From the IMG/VR virus record IMGVR_UViG_3300030333_008157, positions 412 through 21,076 of that record: DNA of 20,665 nt. One strand, written 5' to 3'. Shown piece by piece: positions 10,179 through 19,078 of the stretch. The number at the start of each line of letters is the position of its first letter. Position 1 is the first letter of the stretch. Position numbers and translations under genes: made by a program. Below the pieces are notes generated by a model. The model was not told the origin of the DNA and did not search any database. It worked only from the letters and a program-made list of their open reading frames with translations. This stretch comes from a virus.

Positions 10179-10594
10179 ATTACTTCCTTCACCCTTTCTA
10201 ATATATTTACATCTCCTTCTACATTTTTGGGTGTATAAATATTTATTTTTTTTGTGTTTAGGCTGTAAATTAAAAATGCCTGACAACAGGTCTCAGCCAT
10301 TTTTACGTCAAATTCAGATTCCTTCTCATCTCCCAAGACATGACTATGGAAAACAGCAACCATGTCATAGTCATCTTTAAAAAGTAGATAGTTCAAAGGG
10401 TTTATCAAGAAATGTGATTCTGGCTCTGGAGAGATATTTTTCTCCTCCTGCACTAAATATTCATTTGATTCATGGTCATAACCCAAAAACCCGCAAAGCT
10501 CCCTTCTAAAAGAAGATTTACAAATATTTATTATAGAGGATAAAGCCTCCTCTACATCCTTAAATCGAAGTGTTTCTTCCATAGCTAAATCCAT
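10175..10594 (-). CDS. JAMM/MPN-domain tail protein, N-terminal half of lambda K
   Basis: This is a stand-alone JAB1/MPN metalloprotease-like protein. With the ATG at 10594 it has 139 residues. It shows the full zinc motif: Glu32 in RRELCGFLG, then His83-Ser-His85, Ser93 and Asp96, the H-x-H-x7-S-x2-D signature. Lambda K carries a JAMM domain followed by an NlpC/P60 peptidase domain. The second domain is absent here, and the next gene follows at once. The frame is open upstream to a TTG at 10615. ATG 10594 is chosen because AGGAA lies about 4 nt before it. Either start lies inside the L gene, giving an overlap of 35-56 nt. The substrate is unknown. The catalytic residues look intact, so proteolysis during tail-tip assembly or at DNA entry is possible but inferred. 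Confidence 0.87.
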   Translation of the reverse strand: MDLAMEETLRFKDVEEALSSIINICKSSFRRELCGFLGYDHESNEYLVQEEKNISPEPESHFLINPLNYLLFKDDYDMVAVFHSHVLGDEKESEFDVKMAETCCQAFLIYSLNTKKINIYTPKNVEGDVNILERVKEVI

Positions 10595-12788
10595 CAGTTC
10601 CTGGGAATCCACCAAACCGTGGATTGTTAGGTGTAGGGTTGGGTATTCTTGTTGGATTACCTTCGTAATAACCTCGGTTAAAACCTGAGAAACTACCGCT
10701 TCCCGTCAGATGATAACCTCCAGTGTGAATATCAACTAATCCATTACTAATACTTGCGTCTCCTGTAGTTCCATCCCACCAAGCGATTAAGCTGTGTTGA
10801 CCATAAAGCAAAGGAGGACTCCCCTCAGGAAGACCTTTTCCTGTTCCACCTGTGAGGGGAGACATCAATCCCGTGCATTCCTCGTATGTTCTGGGGACTA
10901 TGTTAACAGTGTTTATGTTAAGATCGTTAGATACTGGAACAACTCTCAAAAAATCAATTTCCTCTTGGGACAAAACTCTGTTCCAGAGAGCCCACGTAGC
11001 AATATGACCATTTATACATGAAACAGTGGCTCTATCTTGGTGCTCGTAAGACAGTGAGTCGTGACCGTAATACTCAACCCCCCCAATCATAAATGCATTA
11101 GGCAGGGGTCCATAGGGTGGTCCCGCAGGGTCAGAAGATGCTGGCCATCCCGCCGTCGCAGCTTTTCTTTCTGCAAGGCTCCCGAAATTACCAAGAAAGC
11201 GACGATTTAAAATATCTGCACCTCTCACTCTATTGCTACCTTGTTTGGGGCGAGTTGGTTCTCCTTGTTGTTCTCCATTAACATAAAAATTAATTTGTGT
11301 TACTTCATTTTCTCCTTCTCCATTGATAATTTCTTGTTGGCTAGCAGTTAACCCATTTTCTAATCCTCTACCATGCGTTATAACATATTGATTCCATACC
11401 TCAAAGTCATCTTCCGTTAGTGTTTGTAAAGAAGCTAAACCTTGGCGCTGATATATATTATTTCTACTACTATTGGTGGTTGGACTAATTCTATAACCAA
11501 GGTATTCTGCTTCTATTCCACGATTCATGCCTATGCCCATATTAACGTATCTTGCCGATGGCCATACTCCGACATCTGCTTGTTTGGAGCTAGAAAAAAT
11601 ACCTGCTCGGTTAGGACTTGTAGATCTTACATTAGCAAATCCCATTAAAGTAAAGTTGCCAGTAAGCTTTCCAGTTAATTCGTTTGAGTGAAAGAATCCT
11701 GTATTTGTAGCATATCTAAGTGGAGCACTTGATGTTCCTGCAACAAATCTTACTTGGGATTGACTTCTAGTAGAACCAAGAGTCCTTCCTGAAATTCTAA
11801 CCGATGGAAAAGTTTTGTTTGTAACAGTTCCCCCTATAAATTCTATGTGAGAGTTAGCATTAAACCTTTTCCTACATGCCCCTAGCTTTTTACTACATCC
11901 GTCTTTTTGCCAATAACTAGGATTATTTGCTGGAGATTTACCAGAATTTGTAGCACCACCGTCTCCTGAAACTGCGACATATACAGTTTTTAAAGGGTAT
12001 ACTGTGTCATCGTTAGGATTAAAATCCACTGGAGGAACATTGATTGTAGGGCTTTTTACCCATACGATATCTCCTTTAAAATAACCAGAATTAGGTGTCC
12101 ACTCTGCGTAATTAGAATGGAAAAAATCTACAGGAGTAGGACTGTTAAACTGTGGAACTACAGATACCCCATCTGCATCCTTAAAAGGGTATCCATCATC
12201 TTTTTCAACGGGAAAACCTGCATATCTACAACCCTCTCCCCGATATTGGAAACCACAAAATTTAGCAACTACATTTCTAGAATTAACGCTAAAGTTTTCT
12301 AAATCTAGAGGTGAGTTTAATTCAAACTCTACAAATATCTTAGACTCTTGGGTCTTTCTGCCCATAATCCAAGTTTCATTAGTTAATTCAGCTTTAGAAT
12401 CAGCGGCACCAAAAGGATTCCCTCCTTGGAAATTTGAATCATCTAAAAATTTTACTTGGACCCTTTTCCTTACAAACTTAGCATTAATTAAATCTTTATA
12501 GTTTTGTAGGAAGTTAGTAATGATATTGTTTTTATTAGCTACTTTAATTTTTGGTCTAGCTAATTTACCATCACCGAGTATGTCAAACCCCTCTGTTTCT
12601 ATAGCTAAAGGCAAGTAGTCTACACCTTGCCAAGTAATAGATTTATCAAAATTACTACCCCCATGAAACCCCAAGAAAAGATTTGGTAGGTTAACCCTAT
12701 CAGGGAAAACCCTAAACAGTTCTAGCACAGCAGTTGGCTGCAAGTCCAACAAACTCTGAGCTACTTTATTTTTTCCTTCTGCCGCCAT
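10560..12788 (-). CDS. L-like tail-tip protein with carbohydrate-binding insert and lectin-like domain
   Basis: This 742-residue protein is much longer than lambda L (about 232 aa). Residues 1-190 match phage minor tail protein L, including NLFLGFHGGSNFDKSITWQG and FCGFQYRGEGCRYAGFP. Four cysteines, C178, C187, C298 and C305, keep the C-x8-C and C-x6-C spacing of the lambda L iron-sulphur ligands, but 110 residues separate the pairs. The insert (about 215-295) has YAEWTPNSGYFKGDIVWVK, YVAVSG and a final NNPSYWQKD, which is the aromatic and spacing pattern of family 5/12 carbohydrate-binding modules. Residues ~365-615 look like a LamG/concanavalin A-type jelly-roll, with FTLMGFANV, INFYVNGEQQ and the closing ATWALWNRVLSQEEIDFL. 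The tail is Pro/Gly-rich. This is the first gene of the leftward operon, with a promoter-like octamer 6 nt before ATG 12788. Glycan binding is inferred. Confidence 0.88.
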   Translation of the reverse strand: MAAEGKNKVAQSLLDLQPTAVLELFRVFPDRVNLPNLFLGFHGGSNFDKSITWQGVDYLPLAIETEGFDILGDGKLARPKIKVANKNNIITNFLQNYKDLINAKFVRKRVQVKFLDDSNFQGGNPFGAADSKAELTNETWIMGRKTQESKIFVEFELNSPLDLENFSVNSRNVVAKFCGFQYRGEGCRYAGFPVEKDDGYPFKDADGVSVVPQFNSPTPVDFFHSNYAEWTPNSGYFKGDIVWVKSPTINVPPVDFNPNDDTVYPLKTVYVAVSGDGGATNSGKSPANNPSYWQKDGCSKKLGACRKRFNANSHIEFIGGTVTNKTFPSVRISGRTLGSTRSQSQVRFVAGTSSAPLRYATNTGFFHSNELTGKLTGNFTLMGFANVRSTSPNRAGIFSSSKQADVGVWPSARYVNMGIGMNRGIEAEYLGYRISPTTNSSRNNIYQRQGLASLQTLTEDDFEVWNQYVITHGRGLENGLTASQQEIINGEGENEVTQINFYVNGEQQGEPTRPKQGSNRVRGADILNRRFLGNFGSLAERKAATAGWPASSDPAGPPYGPLPNAFMIGGVEYYGHDSLSYEHQDRATVSCINGHIATWALWNRVLSQEEIDFLRVVPVSNDLNINTVNIVPRTYEECTGLMSPLTGGTGKGLPEGSPPLLYGQHSLIAWWDGTTGDASISNGLVDIHTGGYHLTGSGSFSGFNRGYYEGNPTRIPNPTPNNPRFGGFPGTDGFSYGRNTSI

Positions 12789-12794
12789 GTTTAG

Positions 12795-12802
12795 ATTTAC
12801 AC
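12795..12802 (-). promoter_or_regulatory. GTGTAAAT late-promoter-like motif for the tail operon
   Basis: Read on the minus strand, GTGTAAAT ends 6 nt before the ATG of the L-like gene (CTAAAC between). The same octamer in the same arrangement precedes the holin gene and the 60-aa TM gene. A conventional TATAAT also lies on this strand at 12814-12809, with a poor TTTTCA 16 nt upstream, so sigma70-type initiation is an alternative. Confidence 0.5.
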
Positions 12803-12823
12803 TTTTTAATTATATAATATAAT
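12796..12823 (+). promoter_or_regulatory. Sigma70-like promoter of the rightward 12830 operon
   Basis: TTTACA (12796-12801) and TATAAT (12818-12823) are 16 nt apart, and the -10 box ends 6 nt before the GTG start at 12830. Initiation would fall at or next to the start codon, giving a leaderless message. The -35 box is the complement of the GTGTAAAT motif on the other strand, so the divergent signals overlap. Confidence 0.55.
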
Positions 12824-12829
12824 AAAGAT

Positions 12830-13543
12830 GTGAAAATTACACAGTTAAAAGAACCTAACGACGAGTTATGGCAACATTTTTGGGATTTCTTTATATCATC
12901 TAAGCCTTATGACTTGGGAGGAATCCGTTCCCCTTATTTAAAAAGAAAAAAAATACAGGATTTGTATGATTATTATTTTGAAAATTGCATTGTTTATATA
13001 GCAAAAGAAAATGATAAATTAAAAACAGCCATTTTCCTGCATGAAGAAGAATCTTTTTTTGATGTGACTTTCATCTTTGGGGTCTCCAAAAATTTTACCA
13101 GTGCTTCACTGATCTCGACAGTGCATGATATTTTTGATTTAGCACTTAAAGAATATAATAAAAATTATATTAAAAGTGAAATCAGACGCAAACATAAGGT
13201 GAAATCCTATAAAAAATGGATTGAAAGATACGATAAACGAGCAATAATATTCAATGACCCACCAAATACAGTAGTTTGGTGTAAAAGTAATCGGATGAAA
13301 GCTCAATTCAAAGTAGTAGGAACCAATCAAGCCACAGAACATTTAATGGGGCAGACTGCCTCTTTGACTCAAACATTCATTGGATCAATGAGAGAACTCA
13401 CTTTTGGTGAAAAAAAATACTTTTTTGATGAAAAGAGTGTTGACTTTTTACCTTCATGTGTTGTAGTCAATGGATTCCTGTCCGACGACAAAGAGAACGT
13501 AGGCAGGGTAGCACTTGAATTCATACCACAAAATGAAAAGTAA
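12830..13543 (+). CDS. Unknown 237-aa protein, possible acetyltransferase-like fold
   Basis: I do not recognise this protein with certainty. It starts at GTG 12830. An ATG two bases earlier is followed at once by TGA and cannot serve. Residues ~55-150 alternate strand-like stretches (IVYIAKENDKLKTAIFLHE, FFDVTFIFGVSKNF) with a helix and a basic KSEIRRKHKVKSYKKWIERY segment. That layout recalls GNAT acyltransferases, but no clear acetyl-CoA loop is visible. The C-terminal ~75 residues (QFKVVG to the end) seem to be a separate beta-rich part. It is the first gene of a coupled operon with the spanin-like pair and the deaminase, and lies opposite the tail operon. Its role could be structural or modifying; the sequence does not decide. 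Confidence 0.8.
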   Translation: MKITQLKEPNDELWQHFWDFFISSKPYDLGGIRSPYLKRKKIQDLYDYYFENCIVYIAKENDKLKTAIFLHEEESFFDVTFIFGVSKNFTSASLISTVHDIFDLALKEYNKNYIKSEIRRKHKVKSYKKWIERYDKRAIIFNDPPNTVVWCKSNRMKAQFKVVGTNQATEHLMGQTASLTQTFIGSMRELTFGEKKYFFDEKSVDFLPSCVVVNGFLSDDKENVGRVALEFIPQNEK

Positions 13544-13733
13544 ACCTGTTCTATACAGAGTATATAACCGCAAGGGAGAGTATCATCACGCTTACAGCGC
13601 AACCTTAAAGGGTTCTTTGCTTTGGGCTATTGATTGCGCCAAGACTGTTCACGGATCAGTTAAAGAGGTCTATGAAGATAAAACCGAAAAAGAAATCTTT
13701 ACTTCCAAGAAAGACGCAAAATGTTCTCTCTAA
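13533..13733 (+). CDS. Small unknown protein, 66 aa
   Basis: This starts at ATG 13533, inside the last codons of the upstream gene (11-nt overlap), which fits translational coupling. An in-frame ATG at 13515 would add six residues but deepen the overlap. The protein begins MKSKPVLYRVYNRKGEYHHA and contains ALLWAID-like hydrophobic and charged segments, with no signal peptide or TM helix. The lysine-rich C-terminus (SKKDAK) ends inside the next gene. It resembles small phage proteins of unknown function in size and placement only. Confidence 0.7.
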   Translation: MKSKPVLYRVYNRKGEYHHAYSATLKGSLLWAIDCAKTVHGSVKEVYEDKTEKEIFTSKKDAKCSL

Positions 13734-13969
13734 TCAAATCTGTTTTAAAATCCTTAGAATTATTTCTAAGTCTTAAAAATAAAAAATTTTATTATGATTT
13801 ACATAAAGACCACAATGATAGAGAATTTGCAATTGTTGAAGCAATTGAGCAACTTAGGCAAACTGGCAATAGCAATGATGCTGATAGGGCTGACCTCTTG
13901 CGCGAGCGTCTCAACGCAGAGCGTAAGCGATTTGAACATTTATCAGCCTTCTACACTAAGACTAAGTAA
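13721..13969 (+). CDS. Putative Rz-like inner-membrane spanin partner, 82 aa
   Basis: The frame overlaps the preceding gene by 13 nt, with ATG 13721 shortly after an AAGAAAG purine run. Residues 1-20 (MFSLIKSVLKSLELFLSLKN) are hydrophobic but interrupted by two lysines, so they look amphipathic rather than a clean TM helix. Residues ~24-75 are strongly helical and charged, with a DRADLLRERLNAERKR segment suited to a coiled coil. The lipoprotein gene begins inside it in the +1 frame, which is the classical embedded Rz/Rz1 arrangement. The spanin call therefore rests on architecture more than on the protein itself. An alternative is a small membrane-associated protein unrelated to lysis. Confidence 0.55.
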   Translation: MFSLIKSVLKSLELFLSLKNKKFYYDLHKDHNDREFAIVEAIEQLRQTGNSNDADRADLLRERLNAERKRFEHLSAFYTKTK

Positions 13970-14078
13970 AAGTATCCCTGTTCAAACCCGAGATGGGATA
14001 TATACTCCCCAGACCGACGAGGTATGGCACTCAGATGCTCGTTATCGTAGGCTTGAAAGAGAAATTTACTCTAAATGA
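13815..14078 (+). CDS. Rz1-like outer-membrane spanin lipoprotein
   Basis: The product has a type II signal peptide: basic residues, then AIAMMLIGLTSC, whose LTSC is a lipobox with the cysteine as mature residue 1. The mature part is about 59 residues, is probably anchored in the outer membrane and faces the periplasm. It ends with DEVWHSDARYRRLEREIY, a helical segment. ATG 13815 is chosen for a normal 29-residue signal peptide; ATG 13794 would add seven residues. The first 155 nt lie inside the Rz-like gene in another frame, and the stop overlaps the next start (ATGA). In known phages the Rz/Rz1 pair fuses the two membranes at the last step of lysis of Gram-negative cells. Confidence 0.72.
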   Translation: MIENLQLLKQLSNLGKLAIAMMLIGLTSCASVSTQSVSDLNIYQPSTLRLSKSIPVQTRDGIYTPQTDEVWHSDARYRRLEREIYSK

Positions 14079-14482
14079 GGGTTCCTTGGGAGAAATACGC
14101 ATTAGATTTAGCTAAAACTGCATCTCAACGGAGTGAAGATCCCCACATGAAGGTGGGGGCTTGTGCTTTAAATGAGCATAATATGGTTTTAGCCTTGGGC
14201 TACAACGGTTTAGCACCAAGAAAAGAAGTTGATGATTCGTTTTGGGAAGACAGAAATCGCCGTAGACCTTACATGATTCATGCCGAAGCTAATTGTTTAA
14301 GCCTTGTAAAAAGGGGAGAAGTAAAACTTTTAGCTGTAACTCTTTTGCCATGTTCATCTTGCGCCACGTTGATAGCATCCTATGACATTCCGAAGGTTGT
14401 CTATGGGGAGATATATGAACGGGACATGAAGTCTCTGGAGATTTTTGACTTTTATAACATAGAATGTGTAAAATTGAGTTGA
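14075..14482 (+). CDS. dCMP deaminase-like zinc enzyme
   Basis: This 135-residue protein belongs to the cytidine/deoxycytidylate deaminase superfamily. It has the zinc site in full: His69-Ala-Glu71, where Glu is the proton shuttle, and Pro92-Cys93-x2-Cys96. DPHMKVGACALNEHNMVLALGYNG is the characteristic N-terminal core; the two glycines of GYNG bind near the pyrimidine. The usual reaction is dCMP to dUMP plus ammonia, feeding dTTP synthesis. At 135 residues it is a little shorter than many phage dCMP deaminases (about 150-190), so substrate could differ. The start overlaps the stop of the lipoprotein gene. Its TGA lies inside the -35 box of the next gene's promoter. A nucleotide enzyme between lysis genes is a slightly odd setting. 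Confidence 0.85.
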   Translation: MRVPWEKYALDLAKTASQRSEDPHMKVGACALNEHNMVLALGYNGLAPRKEVDDSFWEDRNRRRPYMIHAEANCLSLVKRGEVKLLAVTLLPCSSCATLIASYDIPKVVYGEIYERDMKSLEIFDFYNIECVKLS

Positions 14483-14508
14483 CAAAGATTAAAATTCTGT
14501 AATAATAC
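14479..14508 (+). promoter_or_regulatory. Sigma70-type promoter of the outer-membrane protein gene
   Basis: A perfect TTGACA (14479-14484) is followed after 18 nt by TAATAC (14503-14508); TAATAA at 14500 with a 15-nt spacer is the alternative. The start codon is at 14515, so initiation would fall at or within a few bases of ATG. The -35 box overlaps the stop codon of the deaminase gene. Confidence 0.68.
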
Positions 14509-14514
14509 AAAAAT

Positions 14515-15198
14515 ATGAAGACACTATTGTTTAGTCTTATGACCATGTTGGGCATTGCTTTTAGCATTGCGGGTTCTCAAGCTACCACTCTTGCAACAGA
14601 TTTATCTGTTGAAGGTGGGGCATCAATCTCAAACTTTAGCACCGATAGGGGTCTAGCAACTAGGGAAGATTCCATTGGAGCTTCTGTTGCCTTGACTACC
14701 CCACTGTCACTAGGGCATTTGTCTTTCGGAGCATCTCTGTTCGATACTGATGGAGGTGGAGAGATGGATTTTGGAGCTAGCTACAGTATCGACTCTAACC
14801 TGTTTGGGCAAAAAGTCGGTCTTACGGCAGCACTAAAAGACACCGAATCTGTCTTCGGAGATAGGGAGGAATTTTCCCTTACTGCCGATTGCACTTATAT
14901 CGCAGACTTCTCTGTTGGTCTTTGGTATGAGGATAATAATGATTGGTTTGGGGTAGAGCTTGGGGTTTCTTATGACTTTGAAACACCTGTCAAAAACCTG
15001 ACACTAAGCCCTTTTGTTACAGTCAACCTTGCAGAAGAATACGAAGCTCTTGAGCTTGGTGTGAAAGCAGATTACGTGCTAACAGAAGATATTTCAATCA
15101 TTGGTAAGATTTCTTATAACGATAACGACTTTGAAGGTTCCTCTTTCGAGGTAGATAAAGAGTGGGTTGTTGGAGCAGGATTATCTTACAGCTTCTAA
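14515..15198 (+). CDS. Phage-encoded outer-membrane beta-barrel protein
   Basis: This 227-residue protein has a Sec signal peptide (MKTLLFSLMTMLGIAFSIAG, likely cut after SQA at residue 23). It continues as alternating polar and hydrophobic strands separated by Asp/Gly/Asn turns, and ends VGAGLSYSF. A C-terminal Phe at the end of an amphipathic strand is the recognition signal for outer-membrane barrel assembly. Some 8-10 strands seem possible. The middle resembles proteins with a Gcw_chp/TIGR02001-type pattern, but that is weak. It stands alone between its own promoter and a strong terminator and appears by eye richer in G+C than its neighbours, so it looks like a moron. Possible roles are receptor masking, superinfection exclusion or host surface change; all are inference. 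Confidence 0.82.
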   Translation: MKTLLFSLMTMLGIAFSIAGSQATTLATDLSVEGGASISNFSTDRGLATREDSIGASVALTTPLSLGHLSFGASLFDTDGGGEMDFGASYSIDSNLFGQKVGLTAALKDTESVFGDREEFSLTADCTYIADFSVGLWYEDNNDWFGVELGVSYDFETPVKNLTLSPFVTVNLAEEYEALELGVKADYVLTEDISIIGKISYNDNDFEGSSFEVDKEWVVGAGLSYSF

Positions 15199-15228
15199 TA
15201 ATTTAAGGTTTTTAAAAAAATAAAAGAA

Positions 15229-15255
15229 AAGCCTCCCGTAAGGGGGGCTTTTTTT
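15229..15255 (+). terminator. Rho-independent terminator after the outer-membrane protein gene
   Basis: The arms AAGCCTCCC (15229-15237) and GGGGGGCTT (15242-15250) form a 9-bp stem with one G-U pair and a GTAA loop. The T run continues to 15255. It insulates the outer-membrane protein unit from the lysis genes. Confidence 0.9.
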
Positions 15256-15262
15256 GTATCGA

Positions 15263-15270
15263 GTGTAAAT
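15263..15270 (+). promoter_or_regulatory. GTGTAAAT late-promoter-like motif for the lysis cassette
   Basis: GTGTAAAT is followed by AAATAAAC and then ATG 15279, 8 nt later. It directly follows the terminator, so the lysis genes need a start signal here. No good -35 box is seen. The 11-mer GTGTAAATAAA is identical to that before the 60-aa TM gene at 17888. Confidence 0.5.
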
Positions 15271-15278
15271 AAATAAAC

Positions 15279-15596
15279 ATGGAGCCTGAAAAGTCTATTT
15301 TAAAAGAGTTTTTAAACGGAGGATGGTTGGTGCCGCTTGTGGGTGCCGCCGCCATGTTTGCTAGATTGTTATCGGGAAACAGTGGGCTGTCTTTAAAACA
15401 ACAGTTTAAAAGAGTAATCACCGCCGCAATTGCGGCTGGTATTGCATGGTTTGTGTTAGAGCAAACAGATGTATCCTCTCTTACAAAAGCGATCACTTAT
15501 GGTATCATTGGTGTAATTAGTCCAGAAGTAATTAGCGGTATCGTGCGATTAGGAGAAAAATTCGCTAAGAACCCAGAAAAATTTATTAAAAAATGA
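15279..15596 (+). CDS. Holin-like small membrane protein
   Basis: This 105-residue protein has three hydrophobic stretches: about 14-31 (GGWLVPLVGAAAMFARLL), 46-62 (VITAAIAAGIAWFVLEQ) and 68-90 (LTKAITYGIIGVISPEVISG). A basic C-terminus (KFAKNPEKFIKK) follows. Size, three TM segments and a charged tail fit a class I holin, which forms holes in the inner membrane at the programmed time and lets the endolysin out. It is the first gene of the cassette that holds the endolysin, which supports the call. Its stop overlaps the next start (ATGA). It could instead belong to the LydA/phage_holin_3 group; I cannot separate these by eye. Confidence 0.75.
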   Translation: MEPEKSILKEFLNGGWLVPLVGAAAMFARLLSGNSGLSLKQQFKRVITAAIAAGIAWFVLEQTDVSSLTKAITYGIIGVISPEVISGIVRLGEKFAKNPEKFIKK

Positions 15597-16198
15597 GACC
15601 TAAGTTTATTGTTTATTGTTTAGCAGCTATCTGTTTAGCGTTTGCGTGGAAAGGATTGATTCTTACAGAGGATATTGAATCTACTCTAGAGGAAAATGCT
15701 AGGCAATCAGAGTCATCTATCATGGAAATAGGGATGTGTTTTGATTGGTATGGAGTTATTATAGTTAATTCTGTTGTTAAAACTTCTCATGGCTCTATAA
15801 CTCCTGCTGAAATGGTGGACATTTTAGAAGAGGAGAGAGGCTACAAGGATGAATATCTAGAGGGATATAAGAAAGATATTACTCCAGACGAAATAGAATA
15901 TGCTGAGTTTGTATTCGCGCAAGAAAAGAAAATAAATCTTTATGTTGATGAGTTAATAGACTGGGCAAATAAAGGAGATATAGAGATGATAAAAGCCTCT
16001 ATTCCTCGCATGTATGACATGACTGACCCTACAATTGACGCGATCAATAATATCATGGATACGAAGATGTATTACAATGAAGCCCAAGCGGAGATTTTAA
16101 ATGCAAAAATATTATTTTATAGAGACTTCATGATCTTAACTATCGTCTTATGTATTGTGATGTCTATCTGCGCTGGTTTTAGTAGAAAGTGTGCATAA
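15593..16198 (+). CDS. Two-TM protein with chemoreceptor-like four-helix periplasmic domain; candidate lysis regulator
   Basis: This 201-residue protein has a TM helix at about 5-24, an acidic helical domain at about 25-178 and a second TM helix at about 179-196, then a short basic tail. That is the layout of the ligand-binding part of a methyl-accepting chemotaxis protein. The segment ELIDWANKGDIEMIKASI with the later DPTIDAINNIMD recalls the four-helix-bundle MCP sensor domain, where Gly-Asp and Asn residues are conserved. No HAMP or signalling domain follows. It overlaps the holin gene (ATGA) and shares its stop with the endolysin start (TAATG). Its place suggests an antiholin or lysis-timing sensor, as a periplasmic domain can control holin in T4 (RI), but that role is inferred. 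Superinfection exclusion is an alternative. Confidence 0.8.
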   Translation: MRPKFIVYCLAAICLAFAWKGLILTEDIESTLEENARQSESSIMEIGMCFDWYGVIIVNSVVKTSHGSITPAEMVDILEEERGYKDEYLEGYKKDITPDEIEYAEFVFAQEKKINLYVDELIDWANKGDIEMIKASIPRMYDMTDPTIDAINNIMDTKMYYNEAQAEILNAKILFYRDFMILTIVLCIVMSICAGFSRKCA

Positions 16199-16818
16199 TG
16201 AATTTTAAGGGAAAAAAAGAAGTAGTAAGAGCGGTGCAGAAACTCCTTGGGGTATCTGCTGACGGTGCTGACGGACCTGTTACTTGGAATGCTATCTTAG
16301 CTAAACTCTCAACTAAGGACGCTCCCGCAATCAATGGGAGTATACCACAAAAAATGGTTTCTTTAGCTAGAGAGGAAATAGGAGTATCCGAAGTAGACGG
16401 TAGTAATTGTGGACCAAGAGTTGATGAATACAAAGCAGCTACATGGCTAGATGCTGATAAAGGTTGGCCATGGTGTGCCGCTTTTATTTGTTGGTTAGTA
16501 AGGGAAGCTATCGAGCAAGAGGATGTAAACTTTAAAAGACCTAGAACCGCTGGAGCTTGGGACTTTGAAAACTGGGCCAAGCAAGAATCAAATAGAGGAA
16601 TTGAATTGCGTAAACCTACAAACGAAGACATTAAAGCTGGTGATATTGTTGTGTTTACCTTTTCCCATATTGGTTTAGCAGTTAAAGACGTAGACTCAAG
16701 TGGTTATGTTGTTACTATAGAAGGCAATACAAATGGAGCAGGAAGTCGTGAAGGAGGATCGGTTTTAGAAAAGAAGAGGCACGTTTCAAAAATTCGCAGT
16801 AGGATAAGAATTCTGTAG
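16198..16818 (+). CDS. CHAP-type endolysin
   Basis: This 206-residue cell-wall hydrolase starts at ATG 16198, chosen because it shares its A with the preceding TAA; the upstream ATG at 16189 adds only three residues. Residues ~5-40 (VVRAVQKLLGVSADGADGPVTW) form a half peptidoglycan-binding-like helix unit. The NlpC/P60-superfamily CHAP domain follows, with Cys93 in WPWCAAF, His157 in FSHIGLAV and Glu175/Asn177 in TIEGNTN as the catalytic set. Such enzymes cut amide or peptide bonds in peptidoglycan. It has no signal peptide, so release would need the holin encoded two genes upstream. Confidence 0.9.
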   Translation: MNFKGKKEVVRAVQKLLGVSADGADGPVTWNAILAKLSTKDAPAINGSIPQKMVSLAREEIGVSEVDGSNCGPRVDEYKAATWLDADKGWPWCAAFICWLVREAIEQEDVNFKRPRTAGAWDFENWAKQESNRGIELRKPTNEDIKAGDIVVFTFSHIGLAVKDVDSSGYVVTIEGNTNGAGSREGGSVLEKKRHVSKIRSRIRIL

Positions 16819-16837
16819 ATTAACTTAGTCTTCCCGT

Positions 16838-16843
16838 TATAAT
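16838..16843 (+). promoter_or_regulatory. -10 element of the pyrophosphatase operon
   Basis: TATAAT ends 7 nt before ATG 16851. No good -35 box lies 16-18 nt upstream (TGTAGA at best). AAGGGG lies only a few bases from the ATG, too close for a normal Shine-Dalgarno sequence. Confidence 0.45.
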
Positions 16844-16850
16844 AAGGGGA

Positions 16851-17141
16851 ATGGAAAAAGTTAATATCCAAGTCAACAGCAACGATATCTTTAATTACGT
16901 TGTGGGAAACTCTGTGTTTGACCCTATCGAAAGATGGGTTGACCCCACAAGATACGAAGTCTTAGATGGTTTTATCTATGATTCCGAAACAAAAGAAAAG
17001 ATTACTCAAAGTAGCGAGTATCAAAGATTTTGTTGGGAAGTAACTAAACTTAAACAGTTAACAGATAAAATGCAGCGACGAGAAATCGAAAGTGTTTGCG
17101 AGGAAATTGCTGAGATCGCACCAACTTATGTTCTTATTTAG
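16851..17141 (+). CDS. Unknown 96-aa protein preceding the pyrophosphatase
   Basis: I do not recognise this protein. It begins MEKVNIQVNSNDIFNYVVGN and ends with a charged, probably helical segment (about 55-90, KLKQLTDKMQRREIESVCEE). It has one Trp-Val-Asp-Pro turn near residue 30, no signal peptide and no TM helix. The C-terminal helix could be a dimerisation or coiled-coil segment. The stop is 2 nt before the next ATG, so it probably shares a message with the basic 48-aa protein and the pyrophosphatase. A TATAAT lies 7 nt before its start. Confidence 0.75.
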   Translation: MEKVNIQVNSNDIFNYVVGNSVFDPIERWVDPTRYEVLDGFIYDSETKEKITQSSEYQRFCWEVTKLKQLTDKMQRREIESVCEEIAEIAPTYVLI

Positions 17142-17143
17142 TC

Positions 17144-17290
17144 ATGGCCAAAAAAACATCACTCCAATCTAAGTATTCCCTTAAGAAAAAAGTTAAAAAT
17201 AAGGGAGTCCACGCTAGAAGTAAAACTTCTAATCATAAACAGAGTAAACTCTATAAGAAAAAATATCGAGGGCAGGGCAAGAAAAGATGA
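17144..17290 (+). CDS. Very basic 48-aa protein, MAKKTSLQSKY...YRGQGKKR
   Basis: This short gene (ATG 17144) encodes 48 residues, about 20 of them Lys or Arg, with only scattered hydrophobics. It begins MAKKTSLQSKY and ends KKYRGQGKKR, a pattern I recall from short basic proteins of environmental phages and some bacteria. No function is known to me. The sequence could bind nucleic acid or other polyanions, by charge. The start is 2 nt after the upstream stop, and its own stop overlaps the pyrophosphatase start (ATGA). It lies in frame with a purine-rich stretch that may serve as the ribosome-binding site for the pyrophosphatase. Confidence 0.78.
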   Translation: MAKKTSLQSKYSLKKKVKNKGVHARSKTSNHKQSKLYKKKYRGQGKKR

Positions 17291-17886
17291 ATTTAGTAAA
17301 TGATATTCCCATTACAGAAGATGATTACAAGCACATCAATTGTATTGTCGAAATTCCTAAGGGAACCAATACAAAATACGAATACGACGAGAATTTAAAT
17401 ATATTTAAATTAGATAGATGCCTTGTTTCTTCTTTACAATACCCGATTAATTATGGTTTTGTTCCGCAAAGTTTAGCTTTAGATAATGATCCTTTAGATG
17501 TGTTGATCTTTAATCATGACCCTATTGATAGGGGAAGCATGGTGAGTTGCAGGGTCTTGGGGGTATTAGGTTTTGTTGATGGGGGAGAGGTCGATAACAA
17601 AATTATTGCGGTTCCTCATTGGTCTCCACCAGAAAAATACAAAACAGTTCATGATATTGAGTCTGCTCATCTTAAAATATACCGCCAATTTTTCAAGATT
17701 TACAAAATAGATAGGGATTCTAAGACTAAAGTGGGGGACTGGAGATCTCGTCACGTAGCAATGCAAATAACAAAAGATTCCCATGAACGTTGGAAACAAG
17801 CTAATAAAGAGAGATTTCACGAACAGTGGGCAGATAAAGTTTTTTGGAAAAAAATGAGAAACTCGGGTTTCGTTCAGCCCGATTAA
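17287..17886 (+). CDS. ppa: Family I inorganic pyrophosphatase
   Basis: This soluble enzyme hydrolyses pyrophosphate to two phosphates, which pulls nucleotide polymerisation forward. The 199 residues are slightly longer than the 175 of E. coli Ppa. The polar active-site residues are all recognisable by alignment to the E. coli enzyme: Glu22, Lys30, Glu32, Arg44, Tyr56, Asp66, Asp68, Asp71, Asp98, Asp103, Lys105, Tyr139 and Lys140. DNDPLDVL (66-73) is the family signature and DGGEVDNKIIAVP the second metal loop. The C-terminal ~25 residues beyond the fold are aromatic and basic (WADKVFWKKM). Translation starts inside the upstream stop (ATGA). A role in supporting phage DNA synthesis or host energy balance is inferred. 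Confidence 0.93.
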   Translation: MNLVNDIPITEDDYKHINCIVEIPKGTNTKYEYDENLNIFKLDRCLVSSLQYPINYGFVPQSLALDNDPLDVLIFNHDPIDRGSMVSCRVLGVLGFVDGGEVDNKIIAVPHWSPPEKYKTVHDIESAHLKIYRQFFKIYKIDRDSKTKVGDWRSRHVAMQITKDSHERWKQANKERFHEQWADKVFWKKMRNSGFVQPD

Positions 17887-17887
17887 T

Positions 17888-17895
17888 GTGTAAAT
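17888..17895 (+). promoter_or_regulatory. GTGTAAAT motif before the 60-aa TM gene
   Basis: GTGTAAAT is followed by AAAGAT and ATG 17902. It begins 2 nt after the pyrophosphatase stop. The flanking AAA is also shared with the holin copy. No clear -35 box is visible. Confidence 0.45.
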
Positions 17896-17901
17896 AAAGA
17901 T

Positions 17902-18084
17902 ATGGATACTATTCTACAACTAGTTCAGGATAACCCTTGGTTTGGAGTTGTGACAGCCGCAATTGCTTTTGCTTCTGCTATCGCCGCCGCAACACCCACC
18001 CCCAAAGAGGGGACTTTCCTGTCCAAGATTTACAAAGTTATTGATTGGGCAGCTTTAAACATTGGGAAAGCCAAGCAGAAGTAA
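17902..18084 (+). CDS. Small one-TM protein, 60 aa
   Basis: The protein has one hydrophobic helix at about 12-30 (WFGVVTAAIAFASAIAAA), then a PTPKEGTF turn and a helical C-terminus (LSKIYKVIDWAALNIGKAK). I recall proteins of this layout as hypothetical neighbours of phage lysis genes. The function is unknown: a holin-like or accessory lysis protein is possible, a tail or virion membrane protein less so. It lies between the GTGTAAAT motif and a strong terminator, so it could be a short unit of its own or the end of the pyrophosphatase message. Confidence 0.72.
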   Translation: MDTILQLVQDNPWFGVVTAAIAFASAIAAATPTPKEGTFLSKIYKVIDWAALNIGKAKQK

Positions 18085-18093
18085 GTCTACAGG

Positions 18094-18109
18094 TTAGTCT
18101 AAGGACTAA
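18094..18109. promoter_or_regulatory. Small inverted repeat upstream of the terminator
   Basis: TTAGTC (18094-18099) and GACTAA (18104-18109) form a 6-bp hairpin with a TAAG loop, between the 60-aa gene and the terminator. It may be part of the 3' end or an operator. No T-loop or acceptor stem is present, so it is not a tRNA. Confidence 0.3.
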
Positions 18110-18119
18110 ACTCTAGGCA

Positions 18120-18145
18120 CCTCCATCCTGTGGGTGGGGGTTTTT
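18120..18145 (+). terminator. Rho-independent terminator after the 60-aa gene
   Basis: CCTCCATCC (18120-18128) pairs with GGGTGGGGG (18132-18140) around TGT, with two G-U pairs. A TTTTT run follows at 18141-18145. It closes the block from the lysis cassette through the 60-aa gene. Confidence 0.85.
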
Positions 18146-18192
18146 GCTCTATATACTTGAACAAATCGTGCGTTGGAGTATCATATACTCAT

Positions 18193-18726
18193 ATGATCTC
18201 AGATAAAGCTAAAGGTCTCTCAGGATTAAGCCATGTAGCTCACACAAAGAAGCTCATGGACGAGTCCACTAAGCGTTACCATCATTCTTGTTTATCTGCT
18301 GGTCTAACAATTAAAAAGACTGGTAAAACTCAAGATATTGGGCATGTAGACTTTGTTGTAAACGGAGAGACTGTTGATTTAAAAGGATTAAAAAATTCAA
18401 CCAGAGAGGGTAAAATTCTTTTAGAGTTCCTTAATGTTAATGGAAAAACAGGTTGGTGTAATGAAAATGGAACACCTCTTTGGGTAGCTTTTGATTTCGG
18501 AGCATTCTTTCTTCATGCTAAAAACGTTGATTTATATAACCTCGCAAAACAAAAATGCAATCTAAGAGAGACTGTCGATAAGGTAGATCAGTGTCTATAT
18601 AAAGGTTATCGACGCAAAGGTAGAAAAGATATGATGTCTATGGTCTTGTTGAAAGATGTATTAAATGATTGCGAGCATTGGTTTTTGCCTTACTCAGAAT
18701 ATGAAATACCTATGGACAAAGTTTAA
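18193..18726 (+). CDS. Possible PD-(D/E)XK-fold protein, 177 aa
   Basis: The frame is open back to 18130, but that part covers the terminator's end, so ATG 18193 is preferred. The centre has HVDFVVNGETVDLKGLK (about 51-67), where Asp62-x-Lys64 after a strand could be the D-x-K of a restriction-endonuclease fold. Next come LLEFLNVNGKTGW (77-88) and a strand PLWVAFDF. This order recalls phage proteins with a nuclease-like core (an EFKNVxGxxGW type pattern). Catalysis cannot be asserted. A TATACT lies 3 nt before ATG, and TTGAAC further up has too long a spacer. Its stop overlaps the stop of the opposing 94-aa gene by four bases. A structural role is an alternative. Confidence 0.72.
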   Translation: MISDKAKGLSGLSHVAHTKKLMDESTKRYHHSCLSAGLTIKKTGKTQDIGHVDFVVNGETVDLKGLKNSTREGKILLEFLNVNGKTGWCNENGTPLWVAFDFGAFFLHAKNVDLYNLAKQKCNLRETVDKVDQCLYKGYRRKGRKDMMSMVLLKDVLNDCEHWFLPYSEYEIPMDKV

Positions 18727-19007
18727 GGGTAATCTCTAAAATCTCCTGTTCCCTCGTAGCTGTATCCTGCATTGTAAGGATCAATAAATAATCCTGTGGT
18801 TACAGGTGCTTCTCCAGTCCAAGATTTATACAGATTGCTGACGTTCCTGTTGTATTCTCTAATTAAATGCTGGTTATACCACGGCATGGGACCACTCAAT
18901 CCACCACTTAAGAGATACATTCCTGTAACTTCTTCTCTAAATGTTCTCCAATCACCCGATGCTACTCCAGTGCTAGAATGAATTTCTCCTAATAAATCTA
19001 GTGGCAT
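18723..19007 (-). CDS. 94-aa minus-strand protein of unknown function
   Basis: The frame runs from ATG 19007 to TAA at 18725-18723 and is the only long one in this 360-nt stretch. A GTGTAATT motif lies 8 nt before the start, in the same position as before three other genes. The product begins MPLDLLGEIHSSTGVASGDW and is rich in Gly, Tyr, Asn, Thr and Ser (GLFIDPYNAGYSYEGTGDF). There is no signal peptide or TM helix. The composition resembles parts of the fibre and tail-tip proteins, so a minor virion or tail protein is possible. It points toward the 18193 gene and shares the TTAA overlap with its stop. An opposing frame (18796-18981, plus) looks like its shadow. Confidence 0.6.
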   Translation of the reverse strand: MPLDLLGEIHSSTGVASGDWRTFREEVTGMYLLSGGLSGPMPWYNQHLIREYNRNVSNLYKSWTGEAPVTTGLFIDPYNAGYSYEGTGDFRDYP

Positions 19008-19015
19008 ACTATCTT

Positions 19016-19023
19016 AATTACAC
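19016..19023 (-). promoter_or_regulatory. GTGTAATT motif for the 94-aa minus gene
   Basis: On the minus strand GTGTAATT lies 8 nt before ATG 19007 (AAGATAGT between). It differs at one position from the GTGTAAAT copies. Like the copy before the L gene, it follows AAAAA. Confidence 0.4.
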
Positions 19024-19050: not shown

Positions 19051-19078
19051 TTGACTGCCTCTAAATACTGTATATAAT
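19051..19078 (+). promoter_or_regulatory. Sigma70-type promoter of the right-end small-protein operon
   Basis: TTGACT (19051-19056) and TATAAT (19073-19078) are 16 nt apart, and ATG 19087 follows 8 nt after the -10 box. The upstream sequence has an AGAATTCT palindrome (19031-19038) and the partly repeated ATTCTTGA/ATTCTCTTGA, which could be an operator; that is only a suggestion. Confidence 0.7.

Follow-up and report, generated by a model that had tools for sequence, protein, structure and literature searches.

GTGTAAWW, a strict word that uncultured phages of one group carry 6–8 nt ahead of start codons, is in our judgment probably a phage-specific promoter element, one that would most likely be read by a phage-encoded sigma factor and would give rise to leaderless mRNAs. 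The word was recognized in a window of 20,665 nucleotides, the whole stretch of DNA that was analyzed, which belongs to a virus record of 21,076 bases. It was then followed through related contigs, and from the patterns described below we infer promoter activity, a start site, a timing of expression, and the sigma factor that reads the word. The core of the motif is GTGTAA followed by A/T-rich bases, which refines the octamer as it was first described. No published use of GTGTAAAT in connection with a phage was found in the literature searched.

The initial annotation of the window had placed four octamers ahead of four genes, with gaps to the ATG of 6, 8, 6, and 8 nt, and their places, strands, and spacings were all confirmed in the sequence (Table 1). 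The same holds for the 11 bases (GTGTAAATAAA) common to the holin and 60-aa copies and for the hexamer TTTACA at 12796-12801(+), which is the complement of the L-gene copy and resembles the −35 box of a sigma-70-type promoter that overlaps this octamer on the opposite strand. The layout at the holin gene, a hairpin and then the octamer, is also found in relatives. The gene directly 5′ of the 60-aa gene (17287-17886) encodes an inorganic pyrophosphatase (PF00719, E 5e-46), an unusual cargo for a phage, and a scan for close cellular relatives of this enzyme found none.

Table 1. Features of the window that bear on the GTGTAAWW element
Feature	Position	Strand	Context and basis
Candidate late-promoter octamer GTGTAAAT	12795..12802	-	6 nt upstream of L-like tail gene ATG; from sequence
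Candidate late-promoter octamer GTGTAAAT	15263..15270	+	8 nt upstream of holin-like gene ATG; from sequence
Candidate late-promoter octamer GTGTAAAT	17888..17895	+	6 nt upstream of 60-aa gene ATG; from sequence
Candidate late-promoter octamer GTGTAATT	19016..19023	-	8 nt upstream of 94-aa gene ATG; from sequence
742-aa minor tail protein with lambda L-like N-terminus, heads tail-tip unit	10560..12788	-	phrog_18 minor tail protein, E 3e-49
Terminator-like GC hairpin and T run GCCTCCCGTAAGGGGGGCTTTTTTT	15231..15256	+	Immediately 5′ of holin-gene octamer; from sequence
105-aa holin-like gene	15279..15596	+	phrog_6384 holin, E 9e-4 (weak)
60-aa gene, function unknown	17902..18084	+	phrog_9685, E 1e-8 (family of unknown function)
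94-aa gene, function unknown	18723..19007	-	ORF; homologues (MPNDLL.../MPLDLL...) also with motif
Sigma-70-like promoter TTTACA-16-TATAAT	12796..12823	+	Serves divergent gene (GTG 12830); TATAAT at 12818-12823; from sequence
Sigma-70-like promoter TTGACA-16-AATAAT	14479..14506	+	8 nt ahead of ATG 14515 (beta-barrel-like protein); sequence and homologues
Sigma-70-like promoter TTGACT-16-TATAAT	19051..19078	+	8 nt ahead of ATG 19087; divergent from 94-aa gene octamer

GTGTAAWT occurs six times in the window compared with 2.0 expected from shuffled sequence, and at least six copies were obtained in 2 of 100 shuffles. This count is only mildly raised, and thus it is the position of the octamers, not their raw number, that carries the argument. 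The two copies beyond the four, at 12842-12835(-) within the initial part of the divergent gene and at 15511-15518(+) within the holin gene, were rejected as promoter sites since no start lies at a gap of 6–9 nt. GTGTAA was found 6–8 nt ahead of five called starts, where 0.01 would be expected. One of these, GTGTAAAA at 13279-13286 ahead of the in-frame ATG 13295, was also rejected as a promoter, since many homologues carry a synonymous TGC that destroys the motif and the site is therefore a by-product of coding. In a related contig, the C-terminal 84 amino acids of this 237-aa gene (L125:6995-7011, compared with window 12830-13543) form a short gene of their own, with GTGTAAAA positioned 8 nt ahead of its ATG, as if the N-terminal part had been lost and the internal ATG had taken over.

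No close DNA match to the window was found among phage records, and isolated relatives gave only distant protein matches. Two scans of genome contigs aimed at the host, using a metabolic gene or a sigma factor as the query, returned no relatives. When IMG/VR was scanned, the L-like tail protein recovered 52 loci and the endolysin 80, on contigs of up to 109 kb. The octamer with GTGTAA is positioned 6 nt ahead of the start in all 46 homologues of the L-like gene with the start in view, at protein identities of 45–99%. Among distinct homologous upstream sequences, GTGTAA is kept in 26 of 29 for the holin-like gene, 21 of 25 for the 60-aa gene, and 7 of 7 for the 94-aa gene, and the word also recurs ahead of further genes in the relatives.

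Enrichment near starts in fuller genomes had been suggested as the test of the element, and it was found. The window and five long contigs (G001, G002, G003, G005, and G008) provided 554 genes, the starts of which rest on a simple gene caller. In this set, GTGTAA[A/T] was found at a gap of 6–9 nt before 39 starts compared with 0.38 expected, an enrichment of about 100-fold, with gaps of 6, 7, and 8 nt represented 17, 10, and 12 times and none at 0–5 or 9 nt. The pattern ranks first of 90 permutations of its letters, and the runners-up, AGTGTA and AAGTGT, overlap it. Each of the six sequences is significant singly (P of 1e-9 to 1e-18), but these values overstate independence because the six are related, and the fairer measure is the number of gene families. 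The motif precedes about 23 non-orthologous families (24 with one representative each, minus the rejected internal ATG 13295). Among the 285 genes with upstream room, GTGTAA was found 43 times compared with 1.97 expected; 17 of its 18 one-base variants were absent at gaps of 6–8 nt, and the other, GTGTAT, was found five times. In 18 contigs, two counts of the pattern and the reversed pattern gave 60 versus 6 and 52 versus 6. The absence of a shared −35 box, noted from the window, extends to the larger set, where the upstream positions carry no more than 0.37 bit each when one representative per family is used.

The genes served include those for the L-like tail protein, the holin-like protein, the tape-measure protein, PhoH, and the small subunit of ribonucleotide reductase, together with many unknowns. 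The designation of the element as late suits the main part of this regulon, the structural and lysis genes, but it is too narrow since the site is also found ahead of the genes for PhoH and ribonucleotide reductase. In nearer relatives, the tape-measure gene has the motif 19 nt from its start with AAAGG in between, and this was counted against the explanation that we favor. Between the ribonucleotide reductase and replication genes of contig G002 there is a run of genes (L136:19273 to L137:10238; G002:C1:39273-50238) that resembles a sugar-nucleotide or carbohydrate pathway, as judged from N-terminal sequences alone.

The initial annotation had also called for a phage sigma factor gene, and two proteins with a sigma fold, here called A and B, were found in the relatives. 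Neither is present in the record that contains the window, so that their occurrence in this phage is presumed from its relatives. Together with the enrichment, the conservation before homologous genes, and the lack of a −35 box, they support the interpretation of the octamer as a candidate phage-specific promoter. Protein A (about 234 aa) is encoded near PhoH and terminase and matches Pfam Sigma70_r2 with E values of up to 5e-10. Protein B (about 202 aa) adjoins ssb; it was reached through a weaker Sigma70_r2 match and matches the RNA polymerase sigma factor family phrog_351 (E 3e-4). The predicted models have a mean pLDDT of 69 and a pTM of 0.37 for A, and 79 and 0.47 for B. The top Foldseek neighbors of the B model are sigma factors or RNA polymerase complexes. 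Residues 12-112 of B align with region 2 of Escherichia coli sigma-E with the −10 strand bound (Z 10.8, rmsd 2.5, 94 residues), and residues 131-202 align with region 4 of the same protein (Z 9.0, rmsd 2.7, 67 residues). The solved-structure neighbors of A are also nearly all sigma factors or RNA polymerase complexes, with a weaker fit than for B (Z about 8), and residues 154-225 fall on SigD region 4 at a borderline Z of 8.0. Both proteins possess a sigma-70 family region 2 in fold and in sequence, and the models predict a region 4 helix-turn-helix in both, borderline in A. A search with Pfam Sigma70_r4 gave nothing over the cutoff, although the predicted folds contain a region-4-like domain, and a profile comparison of A with B gave nothing significant.

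Of 18 contigs, which may be incomplete, 17 were found to have protein B and 11 to have protein A. Two motif-bearing contigs in which B was detected without A carry the word ahead of the L-like gene in both cases and ahead of two other gene families. By this association, B is the likelier reader, but A may be too diverged for detection in these contigs. The same element could instead be used by another machine, either sigma A or a host sigma factor aided or modified by a phage factor, and we regard this as somewhat unlikely. Sigma A has the better Pfam region 2 score and a region 2 segment that is almost invariant; however, its gene lies downstream of a gene with a motif of its own, and there are motif-bearing contigs in which B was detected and A was not. 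For the host sigma factor, TGTAAW resembles a poor extended −10 element, but the strict GTG is no feature of sigma-70 promoters, and these phages have host-type promoters of a different appearance. Sigma B as the reader also has a point counted against it, since it possesses region 4, the usual reader of a −35 box, and no such box is seen.

Several other features of these sigma genes were noted. Four contigs (G009, G010, G011, and G012) belong to a more distant group in which sigma B shows about 50% identity and sigma A was not detected; the motif AGTGTAA is present in the two contigs that were read, and TATAAT and GTGTAT are also enriched ahead of the starts of this group. The gene before sigma A (L135:3900-4254) encodes a small zinc-ribbon-like protein (CHSCG...CGKCG) with TATATAAATATATAATG upstream, possibly a partner of sigma A. 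In two contigs (G003:C1:103755-104405 and G006:C1:74887-75537), there is one in-frame TGA within the match to sigma A. The long leader upstream of sigma B, the start codon of which is GTG or TTG, contains the conserved ACGTTTTATAAATATATTATAAAT with repeated AACGTAA words (for example, in L249:2926-3000 and L265:2926-3000) and has the appearance of a regulatory region.

The distance from the octamer to the ATG predicts leaderless mRNAs. With the A of the ATG as +1 and a gap of 6 nt, the octamer occupies about −14 to −7, which would place the start of transcription no more than about 2 nt from this A. The sigma-70-like promoters of the same phages peak 6–7 nt before the start codon, and they precede beta-barrel, small, and other genes as well as sigma B; only 2 of 42 genes are shared by the two classes. 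As both classes are found at a similar short distance from starts, both look built for leaderless mRNA.

A gap of 6–8 nt is also the spacing of a Shine-Dalgarno sequence, and a Shine-Dalgarno-like sequence precedes just 1 of the 44 motif genes, as would be expected if GTGTAAWW were a substitute signal for the initiation of translation. Genes within operons (defined as overlapping the preceding gene or lying no more than 4 nt from it) must be translated as well, and a signal for ribosome binding would have to accompany genes of either kind, yet the motif was found at 1 of 265 operon-internal genes compared with 43 of the 285 with upstream room (Fisher P 5e-12). This distribution argues for a signal in transcription. 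In addition, the holin-gene octamer comes directly after a hairpin that resembles a terminator, the motif is found at divergent starts (15 of 50), and sigma-70-type −10 boxes are positioned at an equal distance ahead of other genes. A role in translation initiation is thus improbable.

A short, strict motif without a −35 box might also suggest transcription by a single-subunit (T7-like) RNA polymerase of the phage. The promoters of these enzymes exceed 8 bp in length, and sigma-fold proteins are present in these phages instead; RNA_pol (PF00940) had no match in eight contigs, a weak result as the controls were silent too, and we consider this polymerase a very improbable reader. The probability that the word reflects chance or, at the L-like gene, a by-product of the divergent promoter is negligible, for although the window count is mildly high at best and the opposite-strand TTTACA looks like a −35 box, the enrichment was obtained out of sample, no divergent promoter is present at most motif genes, and several L homologues carry GTGTAATT, in which the first T of the divergent −35 box is lost but the W seen at other genes is matched.

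We therefore return to GTGTAAWW as a phage-specific element. In the mechanism that we propose, it would act as the −10-type element of a class of promoters for structural, lysis, and some other genes, and it would be read by the host RNA polymerase with a phage-encoded sigma factor, probably B and alternatively A, with no contact to a −35 box. Transcription would begin at or close to the A of the ATG to produce leaderless messages, and the host sigma-70-type promoters (TTGACA/TATAAT, about 6-7 nt before the ATG) would serve another set of genes. In contig G008, gene B is found behind a host-type promoter, TTGACA-17-TATAAT, so B could turn on the GTGTAA class after a host-type phase. The fullest form of this proposal, in which a phage sigma factor with regions 2 and 4 controls an entire regulon through an 8-bp element without a −35 box and essentially all late mRNAs are leaderless, is quite possible, and we advance it tentatively. 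For an uncultured group of phages of roughly 100 kb, the strict word supplies a readable regulatory code, since it marks phage-specific transcription units that can be separated from host-type promoters and for which a candidate sigma factor can be named. Promoter specificity without a −35 box and late gene expression from leaderless messages in a phage are thereby made testable.

The Prochlorococcus siphovirus P-SS2 has a genome of 107.5 kb in which one sigma gene lies near terL and a second adjoins ssb (PMC2784084), and P-SS2 thus offers the precedent of a large ocean siphovirus of the same size class with two phage sigma genes in comparable neighborhoods. It differs in that its sigma factors match the A and B profiles only marginally, a description of its second promoter class was not found in the parts of the publication consulted, and, as a negative control, none of the 77 genes called across 72 kb of P-SS2 has GTGTAA at a gap of 6–8 nt.

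The late promoters of Aeromonas phage Aeh1 have the sequence CTAAATA (PMC1524935). In Aeh1, as here, the bases at −13/−12 are altered and TAAATA is retained, but the leading bases are different, and Aeh1 is a T4-type phage with an identified gp55.

The initial annotation had likened the octamer to the late element of T4, where promoters with TATAAATA are used with gp55, the coactivator gp33, and the sliding clamp gp45 (PMC2988020, PMC1524935). The likeness in function, a −10-only element with a phage sigma factor, stands; sequence and profile comparisons of A and B with gp55 gave no significant match. The relation to the T4-type late system is one of analogy. In the search for a counterpart of the gp45 clamp, a clamp-loader-like gene was found, and neither PF02768 nor PF02916 was matched (PF02916 in a search that had no working positive control). 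In our reading, both systems have a short −10-type element without a −35 box on both strands, a phage-encoded protein of the sigma-70 family, and structural and lysis genes among those served. With the A of the ATG as +1 and a gap of 6 nt, T-11 A-10 A-9 W-8 W-7 would be in register with TAAAT of T4, whereas GTG is found at −14 to −12 where T4 has TA at −13/−12; the right half of the word is A/T-rich, no −35 box is conserved, and TATAAATA is replaced by GTGTAAWW. The GTGTAAWW phages also differ in their predicted leaderless mRNAs, in their lambda-like tail-tip genes and bacterial-type polymerase, and in a candidate sigma factor that unites regions 2 and 4 in a single chain, compared with the domain-2-like gp55 and the split region 4 of gp33. 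A review of T4 transcription asks why no fused sigma factor for late transcription exists (PMC2988020). If our fullest proposal is true, a sigma factor with both regions at the head of this regulon would be the fused answer to the gp55/gp33 split. The proposed mechanism extends the late logic of T4 to phages that are not of the T4 type, in which the word is another one, the mRNAs are predicted to be leaderless, and the candidate sigma factor carries both DNA-binding regions.
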